The notes beneath the pieces were generated by a model, which saw only the letters and a program-made list of their open reading frames with translations, searched no databases and had not been told where the DNA came from. From a virus, in IMG/VR virus record IMGVR_UViG_3300006750_000092, positions 1 through 22,811 of that record: a stretch of 22,811 bases of DNA; one strand, 5' to 3'. Positions within the stretch are counted from its first letter, which is position 1. Every line of letters begins with the position of its first letter. Shown here piece after piece: positions 2,118 through 22,811 of this stretch. The position numbers and the translations under genes were made by a program.

Positions 2118-2318
2118 ATGATATTGAACATATTAAATGATACGGGTCATACGACCCTAGAAGTTACTCAAAGCGAAGTAATAGACCAAATTAATGACCA
2201 CCCTACACATTGGGTGTTTGTTGATGGTGAGATTACTAGTCGAGAAATGATTTCAGATGTTAATTGGGACACCGTTGAATCGGTGGACTTAACTCAAGCA
2301 ATTGTCGGCGGCTGTTAA
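2118..2318 (+). CDS. MoaD/ThiS/ubiquitin-like beta-grasp protein ending GGC
   Basis: This 66-residue protein has a good ribosome binding site (AAGGAGAG) before its ATG. Predicted elements match a beta-grasp fold: a strand pair (MILNIL and TTLEVT), a helix around residues 18-28, a WVFVDGE strand, and a last strand running into IVGG. The V-x-G-E... then ...V-x-L-x-x-x-I-x-GG layout is that of MoaD, ThiS and Urm1, whose C-terminal Gly-Gly is adenylated by E1/ThiF enzymes. Here the di-glycine (64-65) is followed by one Cys, so a peptidase could have to trim it. E1-like (8027) and JAMM (9272) genes lie downstream. Role as a protein modifier or a sulphur carrier is inference. Confidence 0.6.
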   Translation: MILNILNDTGHTTLEVTQSEVIDQINDHPTHWVFVDGEITSREMISDVNWDTVESVDLTQAIVGGC

Positions 2319-2332
2319 GCCTCGATTGCTTG
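2295..2332 (+). promoter_or_regulatory. Hairpin across the stop codon of the ubiquitin-like gene
   Basis: CAAGCAAT at 2295-2302 is the exact reverse complement of ATTGCTTG at 2325-2332; inside, GGC and GCC pair around TGTTAA. It spans the TAA at 2316-2318. It may protect or terminate the transcript, but no T-run follows. Confidence 0.45.
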
Positions 2333-2340
2333 ATAATATA

Positions 2341-2376
2341 GAAAGATTTGAGCGTAGCCCTGCGCTCTTATCTTTC
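2341..2376 (+). promoter_or_regulatory. Strong hairpin before the G-tract leader
   Basis: GAAAGAT (2341-2347) and GAGCG (2350-2354) pair perfectly with CGCTC (2363-2367) and ATCTTTC (2370-2376), with a TT/TT internal loop and the 8-base loop TAGCCCTG. Twelve pairs in such AT-rich DNA are unlikely to be chance. A run of eight G follows at 2384-2391, and CCC in the loop or at 2378-2380 could pair with it, so the element may control the next gene's translation. A terminator is the alternative reading. Confidence 0.55.
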
Positions 2377-2383
2377 GCCCTAC

Positions 2384-2391
2384 GGGGGGGG
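2384..2391 (+). promoter_or_regulatory. G-tract acting as probable ribosome binding site
   Basis: Eight consecutive G lie seven bases before an in-frame ATA at 2399. A similar arrangement (seven G, six bases, ATA) occurs at 16774-16789. G-tracts can pair with the pyrimidine-rich 3' end of 16S rRNA, so these are read as Shine-Dalgarno variants. Confidence 0.4.
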
Positions 2392-2398
2392 TATTACC

Positions 2399-2782
2399 AT
2401 AGAAAAAGACGATTTTAATTTTATAGAAAACGAAACATTCCCCAAATTGATGGAGATTTTTGGATGGACTCTAAAAGAGTATAAAACCTATCAAAACCTA
2501 GCCATAATAAGAGCAGACTTCTATCCCATAGGATATGTGTTAGGATTTAGTAAGAAAGCCATTATTATATGTGATGGTGAAATGCTAATAAACTATCGCG
2601 GAAACTCGTATTCAGATTTTGAAGATTTAGTATCTTTATTCGGGGAAGAAGCCTATGAAACATTTCCTGATTGGGAAATTAAAATAGAAAAACAATGGGC
2701 TGTTAAAAGCCTAGATGGAGAATGGATAACAGCATTCTCAAATTTGGTAGAAATGCCATATAGAACACAAGTGAAGTGTTAA
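2399..2782 (+). CDS. Hypothetical protein, probable ATA start
   Basis: The frame is open from about 2348 to the stop at 2780-2782. A TTG at 2348 would give 144 residues, but that codon lies inside the perfect hairpin and has no ribosome binding site. The stretch from 2348 to 2398 therefore looks like a structured leader, and ATA at 2399 behind the G-tract is preferred (127 residues). The protein is acidic with alternating strands and helices, including a hydrophobic IGYVLGF and AIIICDGE region and a conserved-looking WAVKSLDGEW. I do not recognise the family. It ends one base before the ribonucleotide reductase gene, so the two are likely co-translated. Confidence 0.65.
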   Translation: MEKDDFNFIENETFPKLMEIFGWTLKEYKTYQNLAIIRADFYPIGYVLGFSKKAIIICDGEMLINYRGNSYSDFEDLVSLFGEEAYETFPDWEIKIEKQWAVKSLDGEWITAFSNLVEMPYRTQVKC

Positions 2783-2783
2783 A

Positions 2784-4652
2784 ATGAATGAAGCAAGCGA
2801 ACTAATGCGAGATATAACTCAATGGCTGAAATATGCTAAATATATTCCTGAATTAAACAGGAGAGAAACAAGAGAAGAAACAATAAACAGAAATCTAAAT
2901 ATGCATTTAAAATCATTTAGTCATTTGGATTCAGATACCCAAACCGAAATAAAGGACGTTTACAAAAAGTATGTCCTAACAGGTAAGGTATTACCATCAA
3001 TGCGCTCCATGCAATATGCAGGTAAGCCTATTGAAATAGCACCTAACAGTATCTATAACTGTGCTTACTTGCCTATAGATTCAGTTGAATGCTTTCATGA
3101 AGTATTCTTTTTGTTATTAAATGGAACAGGTGTAGGATTTTCTGTTCAAAACCACCATGTAATTTCCTTGCCTGAAATAAGGCAACCAAACAAATCAAGG
3201 ACTAGAAAAATAGTAATCCAAGATTCAATAGTAGGATGGGCAGACGCAATTAAAGAATTGTTTCGTTCATATACAGGTGAATTAACTCAAACTCCCAGAT
3301 TCATTTATGATGACATCAGGCCAATAGGCACACCCTTAAAAACAAGGGGTGGAAAAGCCCCCGGCCCTCAACCATTGAGAAAATGTATTGTTATTATAGA
3401 AGGCATACTCCAACAAATGGCAGATGGCGACCAACTAACACCATTACAATGTCATGACATCATTTGTCACATGGCGGAGGCTGTTACCGCAGGTGGTAAT
3501 AGAAGGGCAGCATTAATTTCATTGTTTAGTGCTAATAATGCTGAAATGAAAACCTGCAAGGCAGGTAAATTTTGGGACACAAATCCTCAAAGACAACGAG
3601 CAAATAATTCTGCCGTGATTCTACGAAGTAAAGTAACAAAAGAATTTTTCAATTCTCTATGGAAAGACATTGAAAATTCAGGAACAGGAGAACCCGGTGT
3701 GTATTTTACTCACGATAAAGATTGGGGAACTAATCCCTGTTGTGAAATTGCATTACGTCCTTATCAGTTCTGTAATCTAACAGAAATTAATGCTTCAACA
3801 ATCAAGAATGATGAGGATTTGTTTACTAGAGTCGAAGCAGCCACAATCCTCGGAACACTACAAGCAACATATACTGACTTTTATTATCTAAGAGATATAT
3901 GGAGAACAACCACTGAAAAGGATGCATTACTAGGAGTGTCTATGACAGGTATAGCATCTACCAAGATGGATTCATTAGATGTAACAGGAGCAGCACATTT
4001 GGCTAAAAAGGTTAATAAAGAATGGGCATCTCGATTAGGGATAAATACTGCGGCAAGAGTAACTTGTGTGAAACCTTCGGGTACTTCATCTCTAATACTA
4101 GGAACTTCATCTGGAATCCATGCTTGGCATTCTAAATACTACATTAGAAGAATTAGAATAAGTAAGGATGAGTTAATTTATAATTATTTGTTTATGAATC
4201 ACCCTGAATTGGTAGCAGATGAACTAGAGAATCCTAATGGAGCAGTAATCGAAATACCACAAGTAGCGCCAACAAATGCTTTAACTTCTGAATCAGAAGA
4301 CTCCTTTGCATTCTTAGAGAGACTTAAGAATATGACAATTAGATGGGTTAATCCCGGTCACAATGATGGTCAAAACACACATAATATTTCCGCAACTGTT
4401 TATATTAAAGAACATGAGTGGGATGAAATTGGCGAATGGATGTGGCTAAATAGACATTATTATAATGGGTTGTCATGCTACCCTGAATCATCATGGTATG
4501 CACAAGCCCCCTTTGAAAGATGTGATAAGATAACATATGAAAAAATGATGTCTTCTCTTAGAAAGATAGATTTAACACAAATCAAAGAGTTTGAAGATAA
4601 TACTTCGTTTAGTGCTGAAGCCGCCTGTGGCGGTGGTGCTTGTGAAATATAG
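2784..4652 (+). CDS. nrdJ: Class II (adenosylcobalamin-dependent) ribonucleotide reductase
   Basis: This enzyme reduces ribonucleotides to deoxyribonucleotides with a B12-generated thiyl radical. At 622 residues it is somewhat shorter than the monomeric Lactobacillus-type enzyme (about 740). Seen: PSMRSMQYAG at 71-80; Cys93 in YNCAYLP, the first redox cysteine; NPCCEI at 317-322 with the expected thiyl Cys319 and Glu321; Cys330 in FCNL, the second redox cysteine; a KPSGTSSLILG loop; and the C-terminal pair Cys615/Cys620 in CGGGACEI, which recharges the active site. All expected catalytic cysteines are present. The usual Gly after the radical cysteine is replaced by Cys320. It would feed dNTPs to the viral replisome encoded downstream. 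Confidence 0.93.
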   Translation: MNEASELMRDITQWLKYAKYIPELNRRETREETINRNLNMHLKSFSHLDSDTQTEIKDVYKKYVLTGKVLPSMRSMQYAGKPIEIAPNSIYNCAYLPIDSVECFHEVFFLLLNGTGVGFSVQNHHVISLPEIRQPNKSRTRKIVIQDSIVGWADAIKELFRSYTGELTQTPRFIYDDIRPIGTPLKTRGGKAPGPQPLRKCIVIIEGILQQMADGDQLTPLQCHDIICHMAEAVTAGGNRRAALISLFSANNAEMKTCKAGKFWDTNPQRQRANNSAVILRSKVTKEFFNSLWKDIENSGTGEPGVYFTHDKDWGTNPCCEIALRPYQFCNLTEINASTIKNDEDLFTRVEAATILGTLQATYTDFYYLRDIWRTTTEKDALLGVSMTGIASTKMDSLDVTGAAHLAKKVNKEWASRLGINTAARVTCVKPSGTSSLILGTSSGIHAWHSKYYIRRIRISKDELIYNYLFMNHPELVADELENPNGAVIEIPQVAPTNALTSESEDSFAFLERLKNMTIRWVNPGHNDGQNTHNISATVYIKEHEWDEIGEWMWLNRHYYNGLSCYPESSWYAQAPFERCDKITYEKMMSSLRKIDLTQIKEFEDNTSFSAEAACGGGACEI

Positions 4653-5001
4653 TCATCAGATAATTAAGGATATAGAAACCCTTGAATTAGTAATTCCATT
4701 TATAATGGAAAGAGCATCAGAAATGGAGGATATAACTCCTACCTATTCACAATATTATCTTAATGATAATTATGATTACAATGACAAGTCCTCGGCTTTA
4801 ATGGCTCTAAAAAGAGCCGTTGTAGACACTATAGATGGTAAGAATAGTCTTAGAGGACTTCTCAAATATATTAGAAGGCTATTCCTTTGTTCGGGCATGG
4901 CTGACAATGATAACCACTTTAATGAGTTAATGCTTCTTTATTATGATATAGCAATGTATGTAATTGCAAATGAAAATGAAAATAAGAGTGATGTAATATG
5001 A
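4642..5001 (+). CDS. Hypothetical helical protein
   Basis: The frame opens at 4591, but that ATG lies deep inside the reductase gene. A GTG at 4642, just after a GGCGGTGG stretch and overlapping the reductase stop by 11 bases, gives 119 residues and is preferred. The product is mostly helical and acidic, with NDNYDYND in the middle and FNELMLLYYDIAMYVI near the end. No metal-binding or catalytic motif is seen. It is coupled to the next gene by ATGA. It might be an accessory to nucleotide metabolism, but nothing in the sequence shows this. Confidence 0.6.
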   Translation: MKYSHQIIKDIETLELVIPFIMERASEMEDITPTYSQYYLNDNYDYNDKSSALMALKRAVVDTIDGKNSLRGLLKYIRRLFLCSGMADNDNHFNELMLLYYDIAMYVIANENENKSDVI

Positions 5002-5432
5002 AAAAATGTAAATGTGGATGTAATGATTTTATACTATCCCGTAAAATGAAATTGATATGCCAAAAATGCGATAGAATATGGAATCCATTTTCTATTGAAT
5101 ACCATAAGGTTATGGAACCAGACGGTTTCCATTACTTTTGGGTTAAACTAACCCCTCAATTTATTGATAGGTTGGAAACTTCCCTACCAGACCTAGATAT
5201 GGAACAAGTCTTAAAGGATACTATAACCTTAAAGAAAGATTCTAAACAAAACCGTACTTATGCTTGTAAGTATCATGGTAAGCACATATTCTGGAAACTT
5301 AAGTTTAATCATAAGTTGAAAAGACTAGAACTAGAATTGATTATGCTTACCCCCCCTAGCGTCTTAGAATTAAGATATGAAAAGAAAGTAAAAATTATCT
5401 CTCCTGACTTTGGTTATGATGTAGGTGCTTAA
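4998..5432 (+). CDS. Zinc-ribbon hypothetical protein
   Basis: The 144-residue protein begins with a zinc ribbon: Cys4, Cys6, Cys8 and then Cys21-x2-Cys24. The rest is a mixed alpha/beta domain of about 115 residues with several Lys-rich strands and no recognised catalytic motif. ATGA coupling to the upstream gene and direct abutment to the next ATG place it in a polycistronic run. DNA or RNA binding is plausible from the ribbon and the basic surface. The family is not recognised. Confidence 0.7.
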   Translation: MKKCKCGCNDFILSRKMKLICQKCDRIWNPFSIEYHKVMEPDGFHYFWVKLTPQFIDRLETSLPDLDMEQVLKDTITLKKDSKQNRTYACKYHGKHIFWKLKFNHKLKRLELELIMLTPPSVLELRYEKKVKIISPDFGYDVGA

Positions 5433-5867
5433 ATGACGAATAAAGAAATATTAAATTTAATTGAGGGCTTTCCTAAAAGCGATTTGATTAAAGCGTATAA
5501 ACATTACTTAAGAGAAAACAAAAGGTTTAGAAACAGAAGGGACGGCTACGGTAAAGATTCTGGTAATGGACTAGAAAGACCCTCTATCGGTAGAACAACT
5601 TTGAGTTGGGGTCAATTTTCAAAGATTCCGAAGGAGGCCGTCTTTGTTCATGTCTTTACTGAGGGATGTGACCTAACATATTTAAATAGTTTGTCAGAAC
5701 AAGGCTTCTTTGAGAAAACGATTACCTTTGGCAGACGAGATGGAAAAGTTTATGTATATTACAAACAACAAAAAAATTCGCATAAAGGATTTCATTGGTG
5801 TGATGAACATTGTTGCTCCAACTTTAAGAAGCATAATTTTATTGTTAAGATGGAGGAAGAAGAATGA
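5433..5867 (+). CDS. Hypothetical protein with His/Cys cluster
   Basis: The ATG follows the previous stop with no gap. The 144-residue product has a basic N-terminal half rich in Arg and Gly, a central VFVHVF strand region, and a C-terminal FHWCDEHCC cluster that could bind a metal. No known family is recognised. The stop overlaps the next start (ATGA). A frame at 5710 inside this gene is a shadow. Virus-specific function is unknown. Confidence 0.65.
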   Translation: MTNKEILNLIEGFPKSDLIKAYKHYLRENKRFRNRRDGYGKDSGNGLERPSIGRTTLSWGQFSKIPKEAVFVHVFTEGCDLTYLNSLSEQGFFEKTITFGRRDGKVYVYYKQQKNSHKGFHWCDEHCCSNFKKHNFIVKMEEEE

Positions 5868-7180
5868 CATTAGAAGACTATACCTATTTAAGTAAAATTT
5901 GTGTCAAAATTATGTCAGCCAATGACGACAAAGATAATTTCTTTGTAACACATATTGATGTATATTCTACCTATAAGTTAAAACAACTTAGTGCTCGTAA
6001 TTCATTCTGGAAGCCAACGCTTACTTGTTATATAAGTAGAACTAGGAAGAAAGGCGACCCCTTAGTATTGGGAATAAGTGAAACATTACAACAATATTTT
6101 GGTTGGGGCAGCAAAAGACATAGTGCTTCTCCTGTGGAATTTAAAATGGCACTTGTATTTCCTAATTGTGGAAATGCTACCATTCTTATAGAAAAGAAAA
6201 ACCCATACTATCATCTAATGTCTCAAAGATTAACTAAAAATAATACTATGGTGACAGTGAGTAGAGCAATATACAAATCATGTTTTGTGGATGACCCAAT
6301 CAAATTAATGGACTATGTATTCCAAATGATTGTTCTTCCCGAAAACATAAAGTATGCTCTAGAAAATAGAACTCCATATTTCTTTATTGATATAATTGCT
6401 AGAGAAAGACTAGAAGTTAGATTAAATACTAAAATGATTTCCGATGACGAATGTGCATTAGAAATATCAGATGGTGTTTGGGCTCCAATTTCTGTTAAAG
6501 ATTTAGATATATTCATTAACTTCTTTTATCATGGTCACACTCGTACTAAAAAGTGGATGCATATGAGTCCGGCTAGATTATGGGAAACACTATTAGGAAC
6601 TAAACCAACTACTTCCCAAGCATTATTAATGGTAGAATTTCTAACTCAAAATAGAACTCAAGATTTAATTGAATTTAGAGCAGAACAATTAATGAATTCA
6701 TTAGTAGAAAAATATCCTGAAAGAATTAAATTAATTTCATTCAATACTGACAAGGGTAAGAAAGCAACTGCTATGGTTGTTAGAGGAAAATTGTGTGATT
6801 GGATAATTATAGATTCTGAGTTTAAAACACAAATTCAAAAAGTAAAAACATTTGTATATATTTCCGATGAGGCGTTAGAAGATAATAAGCGCCAACCATT
6901 TGGCTATACTAATTCTGGTAATCATCGCCTACCTAATTCTGAGGGCTATAGTGGAATGTTGCGAGGGCCAATTTGTATTGATAATATTCATACTAATTCC
7001 AGTCTTGGTGACCAATACGTTGCTAGAGCATTAGCATTGTTAAATGATAAAACAACAATAGAACTAGTTAATACCATTCGTAGGTATATACCAAAAATCA
7101 TACTAGATGGTATGATGGAATCTAGACTAGATTATGATGGTTTAACTGCTAAAGACTTACAAGAGTTGAAATTAACATGA
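5864..7180 (+). CDS. Unrecognised 438-aa protein with E2-like C-terminal stretch
   Basis: The N-terminal 280 residues match nothing I know. The last 150 show strands (RIKLISFN, ATAMVVRG, WIIIDSEF, TFVYIS), then a Pro-Phe, a His-x-Leu-Pro-Asn, and GPICIDN with Cys371, followed by two helices. This order resembles a ubiquitin-conjugating (E2/UBC) fold: strand meander, HPN, G-x-I-C-L-D, helices. The HPN is imperfect and the usual tryptophan after the cysteine is missing. The gene lies 5' of TFB, E1-like and JAMM genes, which makes an E2 role attractive but unproven. It overlaps its neighbours by ATGA on both sides. I am sure of the gene and unsure of the function. Confidence 0.7.
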   Translation: MTLEDYTYLSKICVKIMSANDDKDNFFVTHIDVYSTYKLKQLSARNSFWKPTLTCYISRTRKKGDPLVLGISETLQQYFGWGSKRHSASPVEFKMALVFPNCGNATILIEKKNPYYHLMSQRLTKNNTMVTVSRAIYKSCFVDDPIKLMDYVFQMIVLPENIKYALENRTPYFFIDIIARERLEVRLNTKMISDDECALEISDGVWAPISVKDLDIFINFFYHGHTRTKKWMHMSPARLWETLLGTKPTTSQALLMVEFLTQNRTQDLIEFRAEQLMNSLVEKYPERIKLISFNTDKGKKATAMVVRGKLCDWIIIDSEFKTQIQKVKTFVYISDEALEDNKRQPFGYTNSGNHRLPNSEGYSGMLRGPICIDNIHTNSSLGDQYVARALALLNDKTTIELVNTIRRYIPKIILDGMMESRLDYDGLTAKDLQELKLT

Positions 7181-8034
7181 GATGTCTTAATTGTAATAGT
7201 GCTAATCATACTATGAGTAATCAATTAGATGAATGGGTTTGTGATGATTGTGGATTTGTAATAGTTCTTAAAATAGAGGAAAACGTAACATTTAATTATA
7301 ATCCTAATGCTACTAATAGAGACAAACCCTATGTGTATAATATGTCATTAGAATGTAATATGATTCTATCAAGATTTATTCATAGAATAGATTTTAATAC
7401 TGCTAGGGATAAAACAATTCATTACCTTGATTTGTTAGAAAACGATTCTAAGTTTAAGGAATTTACAATGCCTCGCGCTGCCTACAAAGTAAAATTTATT
7501 AAAAATAAACCAATAACACAAGATAAAACTATGTTAGCAGCAGCAGTTGTTTTTCTTGTATTGAAAGAACAAAACGTAGCAATAAGACTCACTGATATGG
7601 CTTTAGCAGAAGGATTACCTCCTACTAGATTAAGTAAATTAACCAAAAAAATTGCTAGACTAATAGAAAAGCCATACTTACTTACAAGTATTCCTATTGA
7701 AGCATGGTTAGATAGAATAAATCATTATGCAAATCAAGAGTTGAAAGAGGAATGTCTTCTCTTTTATTACAAAGTTCAAGAAATATTTAATGCTAAGCAA
7801 TTAACTTTTACATTGAAAGATTTGAAAGCAGTTATTTGGCTTCATGGTCAAGTAAGCCCACAATTCACAATATATTGGAAAGACATTAAACATTCCTTTG
7901 GCGAACCAAAAAGTCTAAAAAATGCCGGTGGTTTTACTGGCGCAAAAAGAGTATTAAGTGCGTTAAATCTTACCAAAGAGCAAATTAAACAATTAACTAT
8001 GGATGAATTGATTGGAGGAATAAGATATGAATAG
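7177..8034 (+). CDS. tfb: Transcription factor B (TFIIB-like)
   Basis: Archaeal TFB bridges TBP on the promoter to RNA polymerase. The 285-residue protein starts with the TFB zinc ribbon (Cys3-x2-Cys6, Cys22-x2-Cys25-Gly) and a short B-finger-like linker. Two helical repeats of cyclin-box type follow, at about 75-165 (containing the PITQDKTMLAAAVVFLVL helix and RLTDMALAEGL) and about 170-275. The length fits a lean TFB (usually about 300). A viral copy could redirect the host polymerase to viral promoters. It also ties the virus to an archaeal host. The stop overlaps the next gene's start by eight bases. Confidence 0.88.
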   Translation: MRCLNCNSANHTMSNQLDEWVCDDCGFVIVLKIEENVTFNYNPNATNRDKPYVYNMSLECNMILSRFIHRIDFNTARDKTIHYLDLLENDSKFKEFTMPRAAYKVKFIKNKPITQDKTMLAAAVVFLVLKEQNVAIRLTDMALAEGLPPTRLSKLTKKIARLIEKPYLLTSIPIEAWLDRINHYANQELKEECLLFYYKVQEIFNAKQLTFTLKDLKAVIWLHGQVSPQFTIYWKDIKHSFGEPKSLKNAGGFTGAKRVLSALNLTKEQIKQLTMDELIGGIRYE

Positions 8035-8605
8035 AAAAGTATTAATAATAGGAGTAGGTGGAATAGGTAGTTATCTATTTCCATTATTAGATAAAACTAG
8101 TAGTTATGATATTACTGTTGCAGACCCCGATGTAGTGGAGAATAAGAATATTTCATATCAAAATTTTTATGTAGATGATGTGAGTAACCACAAGGTTACT
8201 TCACTTAAATCTATGAATGGTTATAGTAGTAGTAGATATCCTATTCTAACAGATAAACAAATTATGGACTATGATTTAGTAGTTTGCTGTGCAGACAATC
8301 TAGACGTTAGAAGACTATTGTATCGTCAAGGATTTCAAGACGGTGCTAAGATTAAATGGTTAGACTTAAGGGCGCAAGGTAGGAATGGAGCGTTAATCAG
8401 TTATCTTACTGACCCTAAATTTAGTGATATGTTCCTACAAGGCCCAGAAGGTTCTTTTTCGTGTCAAGGAGAAACCTTTAATGAAACAAATGACACAAAA
8501 CAATTACATTTCACCCATGTAGCAATCGCTGGCTATGGCGCACAATGGATACAACGATGGTTTAATGGGGAAGAAGTAAAAGATAAAATGGTGATAAATA
8601 TATGA
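8027..8605 (+). CDS. ThiF/MoeB/E1-like adenylating enzyme
   Basis: E1-like enzymes bind ATP and adenylate the C-terminal glycine of ubiquitin-like proteins. The 192-residue product begins with a Rossmann strand and GVGGIGS (9-15). It continues with VADPDVVENKNISYQ (31-45), equivalent to D-x-D-x-V-E-x-x-N-L-x-R-Q but with the Arg changed to Tyr. Lys56 and CCADN (87-91, in the DxVVxCxDNxxxR stretch) follow. Cys146 in FSCQGE is a candidate catalytic cysteine. The CxxC zinc sites of MoeB/ThiF are absent, and the protein is shorter than the usual 240 residues. A GGAGG site precedes the ATG. The neighbouring JAMM gene and the GGC-ending protein at 2118 supply a plausible partner and substrate. Confidence 0.85.
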   Translation: MNRKVLIIGVGGIGSYLFPLLDKTSSYDITVADPDVVENKNISYQNFYVDDVSNHKVTSLKSMNGYSSSRYPILTDKQIMDYDLVVCCADNLDVRRLLYRQGFQDGAKIKWLDLRAQGRNGALISYLTDPKFSDMFLQGPEGSFSCQGETFNETNDTKQLHFTHVAIAGYGAQWIQRWFNGEEVKDKMVINI

Positions 8606-9282
8606 GTAAAAGAAAGAAAAATATGGGTCCACGAAAGTGGACAATAGCACAAAAAGACTATTTAAGAAGTCTTTTGAATGAAACGGATGCAAATGGGAAC
8701 CCCTTTCCACGACAAGTGGTGGTTGTATTCTTGAATAAAAAGTTCCCAACTAGGCCTAGAACCCTTAAAGCAGTAGAGGCTATGACAAAAATATTGAGGG
8801 ATGAAACCAAAGCAGAAGAACTTGCTGAAAAGATAGTAAGAGTTAAGCCTAAACCTAAGCCCAAAACAGTTGAGGTTGAGACTATTGTATCGTCAAAGAT
8901 AACGCCCAAAAAAGCAAAGAAAGGTAGGGGCCATCATGTTGATACGACTAACTCTGGTAAGGGGTGGACAACTACAGACGATAGGTTCTTAGTAGAGAAT
9001 TGGTCTGCTATTGATAGTGTGCGTGAAAAGGTAGCAAACCATTTGGGTAGAACAACATTAGGATGTCAAGCAAGACTATGGAAGGTTAAGAAAAACACCG
9101 ACTATTACCACACATTAGTAGGCAATGTGAATGTAACTATTCACAATACTATTCCCGGTAAGCCCGGATTGTTGGAAAAACTATTGACCTACCTAATTAA
9201 TAGAAGGGCCAACAAGCAAGCAAAGAAGGTTGAAAAGTTACAACAACAACTAGCAGAGATGAGTGTTAAATATGAAAACTGA
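8602..9282 (+). CDS. Myb/SANT-like DNA-binding protein
   Basis: The 226-residue basic protein has two Trp-led helix-turn-helix-like segments: RKWTIAQKDYL near residue 11, and KGWTTTDDRFLVENW followed by VANHLGRTTLGCQARLWK around 120-160. These match the tryptophan spacing and final recognition helix of Myb/SANT repeats seen in phage and archaeal DNA-binding proteins. A Pro/Lys linker (KPKPKPK) separates them, and the C-terminus (195-225) is a Lys/Gln coiled coil. It sits between E1-like and JAMM genes, with ATGA coupling upstream. A transcription regulator or genome-architecture protein is the likely role. Confidence 0.65.
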   Translation: MSKRKKNMGPRKWTIAQKDYLRSLLNETDANGNPFPRQVVVVFLNKKFPTRPRTLKAVEAMTKILRDETKAEELAEKIVRVKPKPKPKTVEVETIVSSKITPKKAKKGRGHHVDTTNSGKGWTTTDDRFLVENWSAIDSVREKVANHLGRTTLGCQARLWKVKKNTDYYHTLVGNVNVTIHNTIPGKPGLLEKLLTYLINRRANKQAKKVEKLQQQLAEMSVKYEN

Positions 9283-9874
9283 AATAGAAGATTGGAAAGA
9301 ACAAATTGTTCGCTCTTATGAAAATGAGAGCGTTCAATCCTTCCATGATTGTATATGGGAAATGTCTATAAAGGCATTTGACATACCACGCGAGGTTCAA
9401 GTTGTTATTGATAAGACTAATACATTGTTTATCAGTGTTGGTAGCCCCGGTTTTGTATCCTTTGATGGACAAGAGAGCGCATTGAATGGCATGAAACTTC
9501 CTTTGAAGGAATGGATTCATACTCATCCTTTTGGTCAAGCCTACTTTAGTAGCACAGATAAAAGCACCGTTGCTGTATGGAATACAAAGTTAGATTCAGC
9601 AACAGTATTAGGTAATGGAGAAAAAGCACATTGGTATTTTAGGTGTGGTCCCGATGGGAGCCATGTAATGACTAAGGAAGTGTTTGACTGGCAATCTTCA
9701 GATTATAATTTCTATGAAAATACTACTGATGTATTTTTGGATGTTTCTAAAGTCGTTATGGCAGGACTAACTGATTATCAAAAGTATAAGAAAGCAAAGA
9801 AAGAATATAAGAAAGCAAAGGAAAAATTTCGTAGTAGTTATTGGTTGAATGAGGATAAAGGTGATGAAGAATGA
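9272..9874 (+). CDS. JAMM/MPN+ metallopeptidase
   Basis: JAMM enzymes use zinc to cut after the Gly-Gly of ubiquitin-like proteins. ATG at 9272 is chosen over GTG at 9263; both overlap the previous gene. The JAMM signature is EWIHTHPFG...SSTD: His83, His85, Pro86, Ser93 and Asp96, one residue tighter than the standard H-x-H-P-x7-S-x2-D. The supporting Glu is probably Glu19 or Glu30, not certain. The domain covers about 1-140; the last 30 residues are a Lys/Tyr-rich helix (YKKAKKEYKKAKEK). The protein could mature the GGC-ending modifier from 2118 and remove it from targets. The tail's DNA is repeated at 17261. Confidence 0.8.
   Translation: MKTEIEDWKEQIVRSYENESVQSFHDCIWEMSIKAFDIPREVQVVIDKTNTLFISVGSPGFVSFDGQESALNGMKLPLKEWIHTHPFGQAYFSSTDKSTVAVWNTKLDSATVLGNGEKAHWYFRCGPDGSHVMTKEVFDWQSSDYNFYENTTDVFLDVSKVVMAGLTDYQKYKKAKKEYKKAKEKFRSSYWLNEDKGDEE
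9785..9810 (+). repeat. 26-bp exact direct repeat, copy 1
   Basis: The 26 bases at 9785-9810 are identical to those at 17261-17286, about 7.5 kb away, in the same orientation and reading frame. Here they encode the YKKAKKEY part of the JAMM protein's tail. Confidence 0.8.
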
Positions 9875-9939
9875 ATATAATATTAACCATATCAGGTTGG
9901 GTATTCTTTTGGATATTATTTTTCAAAATGTTTGAGTAA
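9871..9939 (+). CDS. 22-aa single-span membrane micropeptide
   Basis: An ATG overlaps the JAMM stop (ATGA) and opens a 22-codon frame whose product is MNIILTISGWVFFWILFFKM plus two residues, almost entirely hydrophobic and aromatic. It fits one transmembrane helix with a short positive/negative end. It fills the gap before the lipoprotein gene exactly. Its size is below usual gene-calling limits. The overlap architecture is the main support, since chance frames rarely tile a gap this neatly. A membrane partner of the lipoprotein is one possibility. Confidence 0.45.
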   Translation: MNIILTISGWVFFWILFFKMFE

Positions 9940-9947
9940 GTGATAAA

Positions 9948-10388
9948 ATGAACAAAAACAAAATGATGGTGTTGCTAATTGCAGCAAGTATGATGGCGGG
10001 TTGTGCGGAGATAATCCCAGAACCCCCAAATAGTGTAGAGGGTGAAAATCCTCCTGAGTGGAAATATGTAAATGGAACCTACACTATAATAATAGGTGAC
10101 AACAATACAACAGCACCTTTAATTACTGTTGGAAACAATAGCACATGGCTTCAAATCCATAGTGTAACCTTGAATGCCAGCCACCTTAGTTTTGAAGTTG
10201 ATGGGAACACCATCACCTTTCATAACTATACCTTTACATTGGGTGGCTACTTAAACCAAAGCGGTTATTTGTGGAATGAGGGATATGCCTCAAACATAGG
10301 CAATGCTACATTGCATACCCCAGATTTCCCTTATGATATAACTATTGAGTATTCAATTGTTTATAGAGAGTGGACGGGTAAAGAATGA
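9948..10388 (+). CDS. Secreted lipoprotein dense in N-glycosylation sequons
   Basis: The 146-residue protein has a Lys-rich start, a hydrophobic core (MMVLLIAASM) and a lipobox MAGC with Cys19, so it should be exported and lipid-anchored on the cell surface. The mature part is polar and beta-rich. It carries nine overlapping N-x-S/T sequons at seven places (Asn42, 52/53, 63/64, 76, 93, 103 and 119), far more than expected and suggestive of heavy N-glycosylation in the archaeal host. A short Pro-rich linker follows the lipid anchor. No catalytic motif is seen. Superinfection exclusion or surface remodelling is inference. Confidence 0.75.
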   Translation: MNKNKMMVLLIAASMMAGCAEIIPEPPNSVEGENPPEWKYVNGTYTIIIGDNNTTAPLITVGNNSTWLQIHSVTLNASHLSFEVDGNTITFHNYTFTLGGYLNQSGYLWNEGYASNIGNATLHTPDFPYDITIEYSIVYREWTGKE

Positions 10389-10576
10389 GTACATCTTGCA
10401 TATCTTGTGGCAGAATTGAATGGAAGGCCGATGTCGTGCTGATGACCGGAAAATGGGCTAGGCTGTTTAATTATTCAAACAAGAAATACGATGCGATTTC
10501 TTGCTTGAATTGTGGATATACGATGTTTTTCAAAAAGGATGCAAGGTTTAGCCCACTTGAGTTGATATTCGGATGA
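10385..10576 (+). CDS. Zinc-ribbon protein
   Basis: This 63-residue protein has Cys5-x2-Cys8-Gly and Cys40-x2-Cys43-Gly-Tyr-x-x-Phe-Phe-Lys, with a KLFNYSNKKY-like stretch between them. That layout resembles small nucleic-acid-binding zinc ribbons in which a C..CGY.EFYK half site ends the domain. It is joined to both neighbours by ATGA overlaps. Binding of single-stranded nucleic acid or a regulatory role is expected from the fold but not shown here. Confidence 0.7.
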   Translation: MSTSCISCGRIEWKADVVLMTGKWARLFNYSNKKYDAISCLNCGYTMFFKKDARFSPLELIFG

Positions 10577-10992
10577 AACAAGCAATAACTGTTACATTTC
10601 CTGCACCAATGCCAGCAGAAATACCCTGTCCTGTTTGTCGTAAAGAACAAGGCAAATTAGGACAAGGGTGTATCGCTTGTGATTGGAATGGCAAACTAAG
10701 TGTAACAGTTGATGCTAAAATACCAATTCAAAGAACACATATTATTAAATATGTGTCTGAAAATTTAAGCGTGGTTTCGTCTGAATTAACTCGTCTTTAT
10801 GGGTTAGTTCCCGAAGTAGATACTTCGGAAGTAGTTGATAGTGAATTGGGTCAATACGAAGTTGTGCAAATTAGTAGTTTAGGTGGAGCAGTTTGGATAG
10901 CAAATAGGCTAGATGAATTTGAAGCGCCTAAATACTTCTATAATGTGAAAGAACTTAAAGCATTTAAGGAGGGAATGATTCGTGAAGGATGA
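10573..10992 (+). CDS. Protein with N-terminal zinc knuckle
   Basis: The 139-residue protein has Cys19-x2-Cys22 and Cys33-x2-Cys36 followed by DWNGK, similar to the spacing of DnaJ-type or rubredoxin-like zinc knuckles. After it comes a beta-rich region (LSVTVDAKIPI), then a helix and a strand pair. The DnaJ comparison is limited to the cysteine pairs; there is no J domain. The stop is just past the GTG start of the PC4-like gene, so the two overlap by 11 bases. Confidence 0.7.
   Translation: MKQAITVTFPAPMPAEIPCPVCRKEQGKLGQGCIACDWNGKLSVTVDAKIPIQRTHIIKYVSENLSVVSSELTRLYGLVPEVDTSEVVDSELGQYEVVQISSLGGAVWIANRLDEFEAPKYFYNVKELKAFKEGMIREG
10966..10973 (+). promoter_or_regulatory. Shine-Dalgarno supporting a GTG start
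   Basis: AAGGAGGG followed by eight bases and GTG at 10982 gives a near-perfect ribosome binding site and settles the start of the PC4-like gene inside the end of the previous one. Confidence 0.7.
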
Positions 10993-19976: not shown

Positions 19977-20747
19977 ATGATGAATGTATCTGTAAATTTA
20001 AATGAATTTAAAGATGCAGTTGAGGCAATTTGGCTTAAGGGCAAATATAAGTCCTCAACTGTATCAAAGATAGATGCTATTAGTAATATGGGTGTAGCCT
20101 TTATTAAAACTAATAATACACTAACATTGGCTAATGCTAGTGAATCCATTGCAGCGAGTGTTACAATAAGAGCATCGGCAGAAGATGCTAAAGAAGACAT
20201 GATGGTTATTTTTGACATCGAAAAATTGAATAAATATTTAAAGGTGTTCAAAGAAGACCATCTAATTCTTAGAATTACAGATTCCCAAATGATACTAAAG
20301 GATGAATCGCAAAGGGCTAAGATGCAACTATCTGTTGAACACGGAAGCATCGGAGCAATACTCAAAATTCAAACTTTGAAGATTCCAACAGAAGGTATGC
20401 CTGTATTTGGTACAACTCCATTGGAAGCCAAACTTACTATTCAAGGTGAAGTTTTGGCTAAAGCAATTAAGCATTGTAATATTGTTGGGACCGCTACATT
20501 TAAGATTGATTATAACCAAGAAAGATGTGTAATGTCTTCTGCGAATTTTCATGCAACAGAACATTTTGAATGTGAATTACCTTTAGTAGCCCACGAAGGA
20601 GAATCTGCTACGGTAGAATTTTCTGCGCCTATTGATAAATTTTGTATGAGTGGTGTAATGTATCTCTTTTTGAGAGATGACAAACCCATACTACTTATTG
20701 GGCCTAATAGAAAATTAATTGTAGCCCCATATATTAGGGTGAGATAA
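19977..20747 (+). CDS. pcn: PCNA sliding clamp
   Basis: PCNA encircles DNA and tethers the polymerase and ligase. ATG 19977 follows GAGGAAG by seven bases (ATG 19980 is equally possible); the frame upstream to 19953 has no support. The 256-residue length is normal (about 245-260). The pattern of two similar alpha/beta halves is visible: SVNLNEFKDAVEAI at the start, FDIEKLNKYLKVF near 80, the interdomain LRITDSQMIL, AEGLAKAI-like VLAKAIKHCNIV in the second half, and a C-terminal KPILLIGPNRKLIVAPYI replacing the usual Y-x-LAPR ending. Sequence is divergent from host PCNA. It pairs with the RFC gene (15818) and the next gene, PolB. Confidence 0.82.
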   Translation: MMNVSVNLNEFKDAVEAIWLKGKYKSSTVSKIDAISNMGVAFIKTNNTLTLANASESIAASVTIRASAEDAKEDMMVIFDIEKLNKYLKVFKEDHLILRITDSQMILKDESQRAKMQLSVEHGSIGAILKIQTLKIPTEGMPVFGTTPLEAKLTIQGEVLAKAIKHCNIVGTATFKIDYNQERCVMSSANFHATEHFECELPLVAHEGESATVEFSAPIDKFCMSGVMYLFLRDDKPILLIGPNRKLIVAPYIRVR

Positions 20748-22402
20748 TGATAATCAGTGCAATAGATAAAGAAAATATGTTTGCTCTCAGATGGAGGGAA
20801 GAAGGTGAAAGAAAAGAAACCACCATTCCGTATTTGAAGGCCCGTCCTTATTTTTTCATTGTTGGTGATGCTCCTGAAAAGAATCGCGTTTATATTAACG
20901 AACATGGAGTAAGGCTTCGCGTAGACATATACTATGAAACAAATAAAAACTGGGTATCTCTTGATGGAAGAGAATTAAAAAAGGTTATGTGGAACCCACC
21001 AAAACCCGGCTACGCTAGGATGATTAGAAAAGAATGGGAAGAAACTTTTGAAGCAGATGTACCTTTTCATTACCGCTACGCAGTAGATAACCTAACTGAA
21101 ATACCCGAATACGAATTAAGAAAATGGTATTGGGATTTGGAATGGCAACAAGGCGGAAAACATAATGGTGCAATTACCTGTATGTCGTTTTATGATTCCT
21201 TCAATAAGAGAAGTCGTATTTTGTATTGGATTCCTAAAGGTTCTGGAATTAAAAGAAATTTAATTGGACAAGGTTTTTTCACAGAAAAAGAAATGTTAGA
21301 AAGTTTCATGACTATTTTAGAAACTGAAGACCCTGATATGTTAATCTCTTGGTTCGGTTCTAAGTTCGATTTACCTAAACTAATTGAGAGGCTTCACGCT
21401 AACGGGTTGGACCCCCGAAAACTTTCTCCCTATAATGATGTGAAGGGAGTTTATTTTTCTGATGGGATAAAACTTTCAAAGGCAGCACAAGGCTACAACC
21501 CCGTTGAACAACCAGTTAGGGGAAGAATTTTACTTAACCTTGACCTAGCATTTGAGCGTCAATGGAATGATGCACAACGAGGGACACTACCTTCTATGGC
21601 ATTAGACTATATTGCAGAAATTGTCTTAGGTGAGAAGAAATTAGTGAGCGAAAAATTTCCTGATAAGAATGAGTTTTTCGCTAGAGCATGGTTAGAAGAC
21701 ACAAAACATTATCTTGACTATGCCGTAAAGGACGTTGATTTACTTAGGAGAATAGACGAAAAAAACTATACTTCAGAAGCAATAGTTGCTCTACAAAGAT
21801 TAATAGTTGCGCCATTTGATGCTTGTTTTTATGCGAGTAATATGGGTAGTATTTATTTCATGAGAAACGCTACATGGAAAGCACCAACAGGAATACAAGG
21901 CAAGAAAATTTCTTATAGAGGGGCTTTAATTTATGACCCCTCCATTGAAGGAACAAATGGACTACACGAAAATGTAGCAGCATTTGATTTTGCTGGACTA
22001 TACCCTTCTATAACTATTGCTCTCAATATTTCATGGGAAACAAAAAGTTTAGAGCCAACGGATTTTGCTGTGAACATTGCTACTCCAAGAGATTTAAGTG
22101 AAGAAGAAGATTTAGATTGGCGTTATTATAAGACAGATAAACTTGGAACTCTACCTAAAGCATTATTGGAATTAAAAGTATTGCGTGAGTCTTACAAAGA
22201 AAAAATGAAGGCCGCAGAAACCAAAGAAGAGTATGCCAAATGGTATAATAATCAAATGGCTGTCAAAAGATTAATGGCTTCTTTCTACGGCATTGTTGCA
22301 TATCAGGGCTTTGGATGGGCTGATATTGATTTGGCCGCAAGTATTACCGCAGGTGCAAGAAAGGCAATTAGAATGGCAGCATTCAAGGTGATGGAATTAT
22401 GA
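20747..22402 (+). CDS. polB: Family B DNA polymerase, N-terminal part (split before motif C)
   Basis: The 551-residue protein carries the 3'-5' exonuclease (ExoI WDLEW with Asp130/Glu132; ExoII WFGSKFD with Asp208; ExoIII YAVKD with Tyr325 and Asp329). It also has polymerase motif A DFAGLYPSI (Asp414) and motif B KRLMASFYG (507-515, with Ala in place of the usual Asn). It then stops after the helix RKAIRMAAFKVMEL. The YGDTDS motif C with the second catalytic aspartates and the whole thumb (normally 200 or more further residues) are missing. A complete enzyme would need a second fragment encoded downstream. The stop is in ATGA overlap with the repeat-bearing frame, so the break looks natural, not a sequencing slip. 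Confidence 0.88.
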   Translation: MIISAIDKENMFALRWREEGERKETTIPYLKARPYFFIVGDAPEKNRVYINEHGVRLRVDIYYETNKNWVSLDGRELKKVMWNPPKPGYARMIRKEWEETFEADVPFHYRYAVDNLTEIPEYELRKWYWDLEWQQGGKHNGAITCMSFYDSFNKRSRILYWIPKGSGIKRNLIGQGFFTEKEMLESFMTILETEDPDMLISWFGSKFDLPKLIERLHANGLDPRKLSPYNDVKGVYFSDGIKLSKAAQGYNPVEQPVRGRILLNLDLAFERQWNDAQRGTLPSMALDYIAEIVLGEKKLVSEKFPDKNEFFARAWLEDTKHYLDYAVKDVDLLRRIDEKNYTSEAIVALQRLIVAPFDACFYASNMGSIYFMRNATWKAPTGIQGKKISYRGALIYDPSIEGTNGLHENVAAFDFAGLYPSITIALNISWETKSLEPTDFAVNIATPRDLSEEEDLDWRYYKTDKLGTLPKALLELKVLRESYKEKMKAAETKEEYAKWYNNQMAVKRLMASFYGIVAYQGFGWADIDLAASITAGARKAIRMAAFKVMEL

Positions 22403-22811
22403 ACGAAAAGGAAAATCGCCATCTGATAGAATTGTCAGAATTATTAATGACAAAAATTAAGAATAAAGAAATTACTATTTGTGAAACTTGTGACTCCTTT
22501 TTTGAGTATGTTCCTCAAAAGGAATATTGTGATGATTGTAGAAGATATACGCGCAAGTATTACGAAGAGAATCGCGAGAAGATAAATGCGCGAAGACGCA
22601 AGCATCGCAAAGAGAACCGCGAGAAGATAAATGCGCGAAGACGCAAATTCCGCGAAGAGAATCTTGAGAAGATAAAAGCGAAAGACCGCAAGTATTACGA
22701 AGAGAATCGTGAGAAGATAAATGCGAAACAACGCAAGTATTACGAAAAGAATCGTGAAAAAATAAAAGCGAAACGACGCAAGCATCGCAAAGAGAACCGC
22801 GAGAAGATAAA
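22399..22811 (+). CDS. Zinc-motif protein with 15-residue tandem repeats, 3' partial
   Basis: The frame begins in the PolB stop and is still open at the window end. A short helix is followed by Cys28-x2-Cys31 and Cys44-x2-Cys47, a zinc site. From residue 52 there are nearly six copies of a 15-residue unit of the form RKYYEENREKINARR, highly basic and helical. I recall the combination of such Tyr/Asn/Arg-Glu-Lys repeats with a CxxC pair from HNH-type or free-standing homing endonucleases in phages and giant viruses. The position, interrupting PolB before motif C, suits a mobile endonuclease, but the nuclease domain itself would lie beyond the window. Confidence 0.65.
   Translation, partial: MNEKENRHLIELSELLMTKIKNKEITICETCDSFFEYVPQKEYCDDCRRYTRKYYEENREKINARRRKHRKENREKINARRRKFREENLEKIKAKDRKYYEENREKINAKQRKYYEKNREKIKAKRRKHRKENREKI
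22552..22811 (+). repeat. 45-bp in-frame tandem repeats
   Basis: Units start at 22552, 22597, 22642, 22687, 22732 and 22777 (the last cut by the window end). Each is 45 bases (15 codons) with GCG/CGC/CGA-rich ends, richer in GC than the surrounding DNA. Units 1, 4 and 5 read RKYYE..., units 2 and 6 RKHRKE..., unit 3 RKFRE.... The near identity of units 2 and 6 points to recent unequal exchange. There are no spacers, so it is not a CRISPR array. Confidence 0.85.

Follow-up and report, generated by a model that had tools for sequence, protein, structure and literature searches.

The IMG/VR virus record IMGVR_UViG_3300006750_000092, whose 22,811 bases were analyzed in full and are hereafter called the window, carries nearly all of its genes on the plus strand. 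Among these is a cassette of five genes (Table 1), four of which probably encode the parts of a ubiquitin-like protein-conjugation system. Three of them, specifying a small modifier, an E1-like adenylating enzyme and a JAMM metallopeptidase, had been put forward in an initial annotation of the window as members of a ubiquitin-like pathway, and all three reading frames are present with the lengths and motifs that it described. A further component that was absent from that annotation is the gene for a probable E2-like protein, while the remaining gene of the cassette codes for a TFB-like transcription initiation factor.

Table 1. Genes of the cassette, with positions numbered along the window
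Feature	Coordinates	Strand	Details
Predicted ubiquitin-like modifier	2118..2318	+	66 aa; beta-grasp model; precursor ending Gly64-Gly65-Cys66 (...AIVGGC); Gly-Gly codons 2307-2312
Probable E2-like protein	5864..7180	+	438 aa; predicted UBC-like C-terminal domain, residues ~265-423 (~6656-7132); Cys371 codon 6974-6976 in G-P-I-C-I-D-N
TFB-like transcription initiation factor, zinc ribbon	7177..8034	+	Pfam Zn_Ribbon_TF 0.012, below cut-off; conserved C3, C6, C22, C25
E1-like adenylating enzyme	8027..8605	+	192 aa; GVGGIGS nucleotide loop; candidate catalytic Cys146 (codon 8462-8464)
JAMM/MPN+ metallopeptidase	9272..9874	+	E41 codon 9392-9394; HTHPx6SxxD at 9518-9559

The modifier matches no Pfam family, and searches of PHROGs, NCBIfam and the sequences of the PDB recovered only chance-level matches. 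As sequence searches alone gave nothing, its identity was settled by fold prediction together with comparison across its family. An AlphaFold model built with 69 family members shows a beta-beta-alpha-beta-beta-alpha-beta arrangement, with a mean predicted local distance difference test score (pLDDT) of 86.6. Foldseek searches with this model returned ubiquitin chains at probabilities of mostly 0.9-1.0, albeit with a best E-value of only 1.5e-3. Comparison with the PDB by VIA-align gave Z-scores of 5.0-5.8 over 53-64 residues, with MoaD at the top and with ubiquitin-like domains, Pyrococcus SAMP2 and TtuB also among the matches; for a protein of only 66 residues such modest values are to be expected, and the list consists almost wholly of a single fold. 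The modifier is hence predicted to adopt the beta-grasp fold of ubiquitin, MoaD and ThiS, in line with the initial annotation. The Gly-Gly on which that annotation relied is kept in all of the approximately 100 distinct homologs recovered from IMG/VR, a degree of conservation well in excess of chance, and is followed by a variable tail of 0-8 residues: among 93 distinct modifiers the tail is missing in seven, is of one residue in 29, of two in 55, and of seven or eight in two. Nearly all of these proteins show [AV]-x-V-G-G or a similar ending before the tail, with IGG or QGG in a few divergent ones, and as far as sequence can tell such a C-terminus resembles that of a ubiquitin-like precursor that undergoes processing. 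The body of the protein is nearly devoid of lysine, with 86 of 100 distinct homologs having none after residue 4 (the other proteins of the window contain 8.4% lysine), a scarcity that fits avoidance of self-conjugation.

A tblastn search with the modifier and the JAMM protein against 50,697 phage records gave no match. In the sampled cellular genomes the modifier was encountered only on three contigs of one bacterial metagenome-assembled genome (MAG), Altibacter sp. EAC109; since these contigs also hold the E2-like, TFB, E1, JAMM or ribonucleotide reductase genes of the viruses described here, we take them to be binned viral DNA. Directly after the modifier gene, positions 2348-2782 of the window encode a 144-residue protein of no known family with conserved GW and DFYP motifs and a conserved C-terminal cysteine, which is found in 61 of the 103 loci that carry the triad of modifier, E1 and JAMM.

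The proposed E1-like enzyme is recognized by the Pfam ThiF model at 1e-14, over the cut-off, and the same holds for 28 of 28 long viral records. Its family profile matches MoeB, UBA5, Cap2 and ThiF at 1e-8 to 1e-10. Invariant positions of the family are G9xGGIG, D33, D35, N41, Q45, K56, C88, D90, R95 and C146, the last of these being present in 142 of 142 distinct sequences. Between the E1 and JAMM genes lies a gene of variable length (8602-9282), present in only a part of the relatives, whose product weakly resembles phage D5-like transcription regulators (PHROG 323, 3.9e-5).

The JAMM protein comprises 200 residues when read from the ATG at 9272, the mechanically defined open reading frame beginning at the GTG at 9263. 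On its own it matches Pfam Prok-JAB at 0.0046, under the cut-off, whereas its family profile retrieves, at 1.5e-5, the AMSH-like protease of humans, a deubiquitinase, and, at 0.0016, a Rpn11-like JAMM from an archaeon. The motif E-x(n)-H-T-H-P-x6-S-x2-D is complete, with E41, H83, T84, H85, P86, S93 and D96 invariant in about 100 distinct homologs, and H[ST]HPx6SxxD occurs in 151 of 152 distinct sequences, the sole exception being cut by a contig end; the identification as a JAMM peptidase is thus upheld. The initial annotation had further assigned to this enzyme the trimming of the extra C-terminal cysteine of the modifier. This is plausible for precursors with a tail but incomplete as an account, given that seven distinct modifiers already end exactly in Gly-Gly, and that in nine of nine such loci with the JAMM gene visible its catalytic motif is intact. 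Because the motif persists where the modifier needs no trimming, the JAMM protein is unlikely to be a maturation protease only, and the simplest option for a second role would be removal of the tag from substrates.

The 438-residue protein is encoded in all 103 loci with the triad and in 29 of 29 long records. It has no Pfam match, and the canonical E2 model of Pfam, UQ_con (PF00179), was found nowhere in 28 long viral records at E<=1. In its AlphaFold model (pLDDT 88.4) the C-terminal part runs from a helix through four strands and a loop to a conserved cysteine and additional helices, which is the order of elements in E2 enzymes. With residues 265-423, VIA-align matched the ubiquitin E2 variant (UEV) domain of TSG101 (Z 5.1), UBE2S (4.7), Ubc9 (4.1) and Ubc13 (4.0); the top ranks for the protein are occupied by E2/UEV chains at Z 3.4-5.1, followed by RWD-type relatives that share the same fold. 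Cys371 lies after a strand (364-370) and before a helix that starts at 381, within a G-P-I-C-I-D-N segment close to the E2 signature G-x-I-C-L-D-I. The pattern [IVFY]C[IV]D is seen in every untruncated homolog, its cysteine being invariant. This predicted structure makes it probable that the C-terminal domain of the protein is E2-like.

Conservation of the cassette as a unit is pronounced. The order modifier, E2-like gene, TFB, E1, JAMM on one strand was observed in 174 loci, none of which is rearranged; two have a duplicated TFB match and one has no TFB match. Some of these loci share a contig, and there are 112 distinct E1 sequences among the loci with all five genes. Across pairs of loci, divergence in each of the five proteins is correlated with that in the others (r 0.57-0.82), as expected if they share a common descent. 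With few exceptions the TFB gene separates the E2-like gene from E1, which in so compact a genome may be linkage by chance. Of 49 long virus records, 47 were matched by the modifier profile, and 47 each by those of E1 and JAMM. The exceptions are a 66-kb record with none of the three, which was fetched by a polymerase whose gene lies close to the beginning of the contig (about 4 kb), one record that lacks the modifier only, near a contig end, and one that ends just after the modifier; these apparent gaps in the triad arise because the contig ends there. In 252 fetched loci, an E2-like gene without a modifier always had less than 3 kb of upstream sequence, when the two genes, where both are seen, lie up to 6.7 kb apart, and JAMM was present wherever E1 was. 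Hence, in related viruses whose contigs reach far enough, the small gene always accompanies E1 and JAMM. Most of the loci were fetched by similarity to genes of the cassette and cannot by themselves give its prevalence. A fairer sample is provided by 15 long records that were fetched by their DNA polymerase, from among the 80 polymerases nearest to that of the window: 13 have all three genes, and in the remaining two the contig ends cut the region short.

Two records of this set stand out in their organization. IMGVR_UViG_3300021958_000021 (184,733 bases) is about twice the usual size and has two copies each of the modifier, E2-like, E1 and JAMM genes, probably as a result of two genomes being joined in assembly. 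In IMGVR_UViG_3300047157_000174 (96,094 bases) the cassette is divided between the two ends, with pieces of E1 and JAMM at each, an arrangement that circular permutation or terminal redundancy of the genome would produce.

The cassette is surrounded by genes for an adenosylcobalamin-type ribonucleotide reductase, an ATP-dependent DNA ligase, an RFC-type clamp loader and a family B DNA polymerase (PolB), in addition to its own TFB, and by no tail genes. The ligase, RFC and PolB are assigned by Pfam, and the TFB on weak evidence. The profiles of the International Committee on Taxonomy of Viruses (ICTV; PMC10768690, PMC12999244) describe the Magrovirales as viruses of marine archaea, namely the Poseidoniales (formerly Marine Group II), with marine genomes of about 90-110 kb that encode PolB, RFC, PCNA, TFB and ligase. 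The replication module of the window agrees with this description, and IMG/VR records of its relatives extend up to about 85-103 kb. Based on this match in gene content we place the window near the Magrovirales, which makes abundant ocean archaea its probable hosts. The searchable phage collection yielded no named magrovirus; the nearest polymerases there belong to haloarchaeal tailed viruses and share about 25% identity.

Elsewhere in the window, the PolB frame (20747-22402; 551 aa) ends within the polymerase domain, which fits the split PolB-NTD/CTD in the figure legend for Aoguangviridae in the ICTV profile. Near the end of the record there is a repetitive stretch (22444-22785), with a minus-strand frame made up of repeated ILFVILAxFRIYLL-type units. 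Positions 666-1868 encode a 400-residue protein in which the motifs LCGH, HFEI.NTE and ASIVWRWNHP are highly conserved; it has no match in Pfam or NCBIfam and is found in 95 of the 103 loci with the triad. A predicted small lipoprotein-like protein with the signal LIAASMMAGC (9948-10388) occurs in 63 of them, in what is probably an archaeal virus genome.

The folds and families of the individual proteins, the conservation of their catalytic residues, their strict co-occurrence and their gene order, all computed here, form the basis of our interpretation. We consider it likely that the cassette specifies a virus-encoded, reversible ubiquitin-like protein-conjugation system, which is an inherited core module of magrovirus-like viruses. 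In the predicted cycle the JAMM protein would trim the one- or two-residue tail, where present, to expose the Gly-Gly. The E1-like enzyme would then use ATP to adenylate the Gly-Gly carboxylate and transfer the modifier to a thiol, probably that of Cys146. From there the UBC-like domain of the 438-residue protein would accept it on Cys371 and deliver it to lysines of target proteins, with the N-terminal domain of the same protein perhaps selecting the substrates. Finally, the JAMM protein would take the tag off again. The presence of a viral TFB inside the cassette suggests a more specific scenario, wherein host TBP or TFB would be tagged for the host proteasome and replaced by the viral TFB, resulting in a takeover of host transcription. 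In Haloferax, TBP2 is known to be tagged and turned over by the proteasome (PMC4895103), which offers a parallel, but in this particular form we deem the proposal decidedly doubtful.

Several observations weigh against a conjugation system of this kind. In an alignment of the viral E1 with MoeB, Tyr44 stands in place of MoeB Arg73, an ATP contact in the NLxRQ motif, and among 95 homologs this position is Tyr in 92 and Asn in 3. The N-terminal arginine helix of MoeB is missing, and Cys146 aligns with a zinc cysteine of MoeB rather than with its conserved Cys187, while the zinc CxxC pairs are absent from the viral E1. In spite of this odd alignment Cys146 is the best thiol candidate of the enzyme owing to its invariance. 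The E2 assignment comes from one predicted model with modest scores (Z ~4-5). Foldseek with the whole 438-residue model found nothing at E<=0.001, the best E-value being 0.11 to an unrelated fold, and profile-profile comparison by hhalign with four E2 sequences aligned the motif and the following helix at a weak E-value of 0.02. Moreover, no HPN motif was found in this protein, in which the region before GPICIDN is variable; prokaryotic E2-like proteins of type 6d also lack the classical His/HPN but retain the cysteine (PMC1779556). Among the analyses of the cassette neither an E3 nor a substrate was identified. On the side of the modifier, ThiS-type carriers share its fold and its Gly-Gly, and ThiS of E. 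coli is likewise free of lysine. Lysine avoidance can therefore not separate conjugation from sulfur transfer, and we dropped it as a proof of the former.

These features of the modifier raise the alternative of a sulfur carrier of the ThiS/MoaD/TtuB kind: the modifier would be given a thiocarboxylate by the E1 and be freed by the JAMM protein (compare Mec+ and CysO), and tRNA or a metabolite would be thiolated in the infected cell, host enzymes perhaps acting as acceptors. The occurrence of MoaD and TtuB among the fold matches of the modifier and the ThiF/MoeB-like nature of the E1 are consistent with such a function. Bacterial gene neighborhoods combining JAB, ThiS and E1 with sulfur genes do exist (Iyer, Burroughs and Aravind 2006, PMC1779556), and CysH has been reported in some magroviruses (PMC10160649). 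Nevertheless, a sulfur relay offers no role for an E2-like protein, the gene for which is linked to the others throughout. Furthermore, PAPS reductase (PF01507), rhodanese (PF00581), ATP_bind_3 (Ncs6/TtuA, PF01171), PALP (CysM, PF00291) and MoaE (PF02391) were found in none of 28-29 long viral records by searches in which the controls worked. Host donors and acceptors could still serve, but the lack of an in-virus donor or acceptor of these five kinds weakens the case, and we regard a sulfur carrier as unlikely.

Less probable still is a dual system resembling Urm1 and the archaeal SAMPs, in which one modifier would act both as a sulfur carrier and as a protein tag. Urm1 and SAMP systems are known to run without an E2, whereas an E2-like gene is present here, and no sulfur-pathway genes were found in the same 28-29 long viral records. 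What speaks for it is that the predicted fold of the viral modifier is that of SAMP2 and TtuB, and that Urm1 is described as having both functions (PMC5349211, PMC7527816). A role in virion or tail assembly, comparable to that of the ubiquitin-like protein I and protein K (JAB plus NlpC/P60) of lambda and T1, is very improbable: JAB and ubiquitin-like domains are indeed paired in phage tail clusters (PMC1779556), but the cassette lies among ribonucleotide reductase, TFB, ligase, RFC and PolB genes rather than tail genes, it includes an E1, an enzyme absent from the tail clusters that have been described, and its modifier is a stand-alone protein of 66 residues.

Ubiquitin-like cassettes with E1, E2, modifier and JAMM have been described in bacteria, in chromosomal and plasmid operons and in anti-phage defense, and in a few archaea. 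Ubiquitin, ThiF and JAB are unmentioned in the searchable magrovirus literature and in the survey of haloarchaeal tailed viruses, an earlier passing mention in other key magrovirus papers being possible. For a conserved core copy of such a system, carried by uncultured viruses that abound in the ocean, we could find no earlier case in archaeal viruses. It would imply that viruses may chemically tag the proteins of infected cells, much as our own cells do, and raises the question as to which archaeal proteins a lytic virus must tag. With only four proteins, and with precursor tails that naturally range from 0 to 8 residues, the cassette would also lend itself to reconstitution as a minimal cascade, and it bears on the movement of ubiquitin-type systems between viruses and cells.

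In its anatomy the cassette comes closest to the bacterial type 6d operons (Iyer, Burroughs and Aravind 2006, PMC1779556), which have the same four stand-alone parts, Ub-like, JAB, E1-like and E2-like (the last resting on a predicted model in the viral case), including an E2-like protein that lacks the classical His/HPN but has the cysteine. It differs from them in having a viral carrier and an interposed TFB gene, in placing the E2-like domain at the C-terminus of a protein of 400-440 residues, and in reducing the E1 to a minimal domain of 192 residues. No alpha-helical partner was identified in the viral cassette, and the viral modifier has no sequence match in phage records or sampled genomes, save for the one contaminated MAG.

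The archaeal SAMP system (SAMP1/2, UbaA, HvJAMM1/JAMM2) likewise combines a Gly-Gly modifier of the MoaD/ThiS type, an E1-like enzyme and a tag-removing JAMM, and SAMP2 is among the fold matches of the viral modifier. SAMP conjugation is known to run without an E2. The viral E1 is far removed from the UbaA model NF047750, scoring 28 bits against a cut-off of 450, and by the type of its E1, as judged from sequence, the viral cassette is not a SAMP system.

Among phage records the closest E1 outside this virus group belongs to the gp76-gp77 pair of the crAss-like phage crAss001, where a ThiF gene is situated directly beside a JAB gene whose motif, HSH...FSGTD, resembles that of the viral JAMM protein, in the replication and ribonucleotide reductase region. 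There, in contrast to the viral cassette, no stand-alone modifier was found and the E1 has a long N-terminal extension. The AIVGGS segment in the N-terminus of the crAss E1 was considered as a fused copy of a modifier but received no profile support, and no signal was detected that would relate crAss001 gp78 or gp75 to the E2-like protein. In both crAss001 (8259-10657) and cr106_1 the ThiF/E1 gene directly beside JAB is annotated as thiamine biosynthesis; this is possibly another phage-borne ubiquitin-like system.

Lastly, the Bil and type II CBASS (cyclic oligonucleotide-based antiphage signaling system; Cap2/Cap3) systems share the chemistry of E1 (and E2) with JAB, and the viral E1 matches E1-E2 models of PADLOC, in matches that cover the shared nucleotide-binding region only. 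In those cases the systems are defenses of the host against phage, whereas here the system is encoded by the virus.

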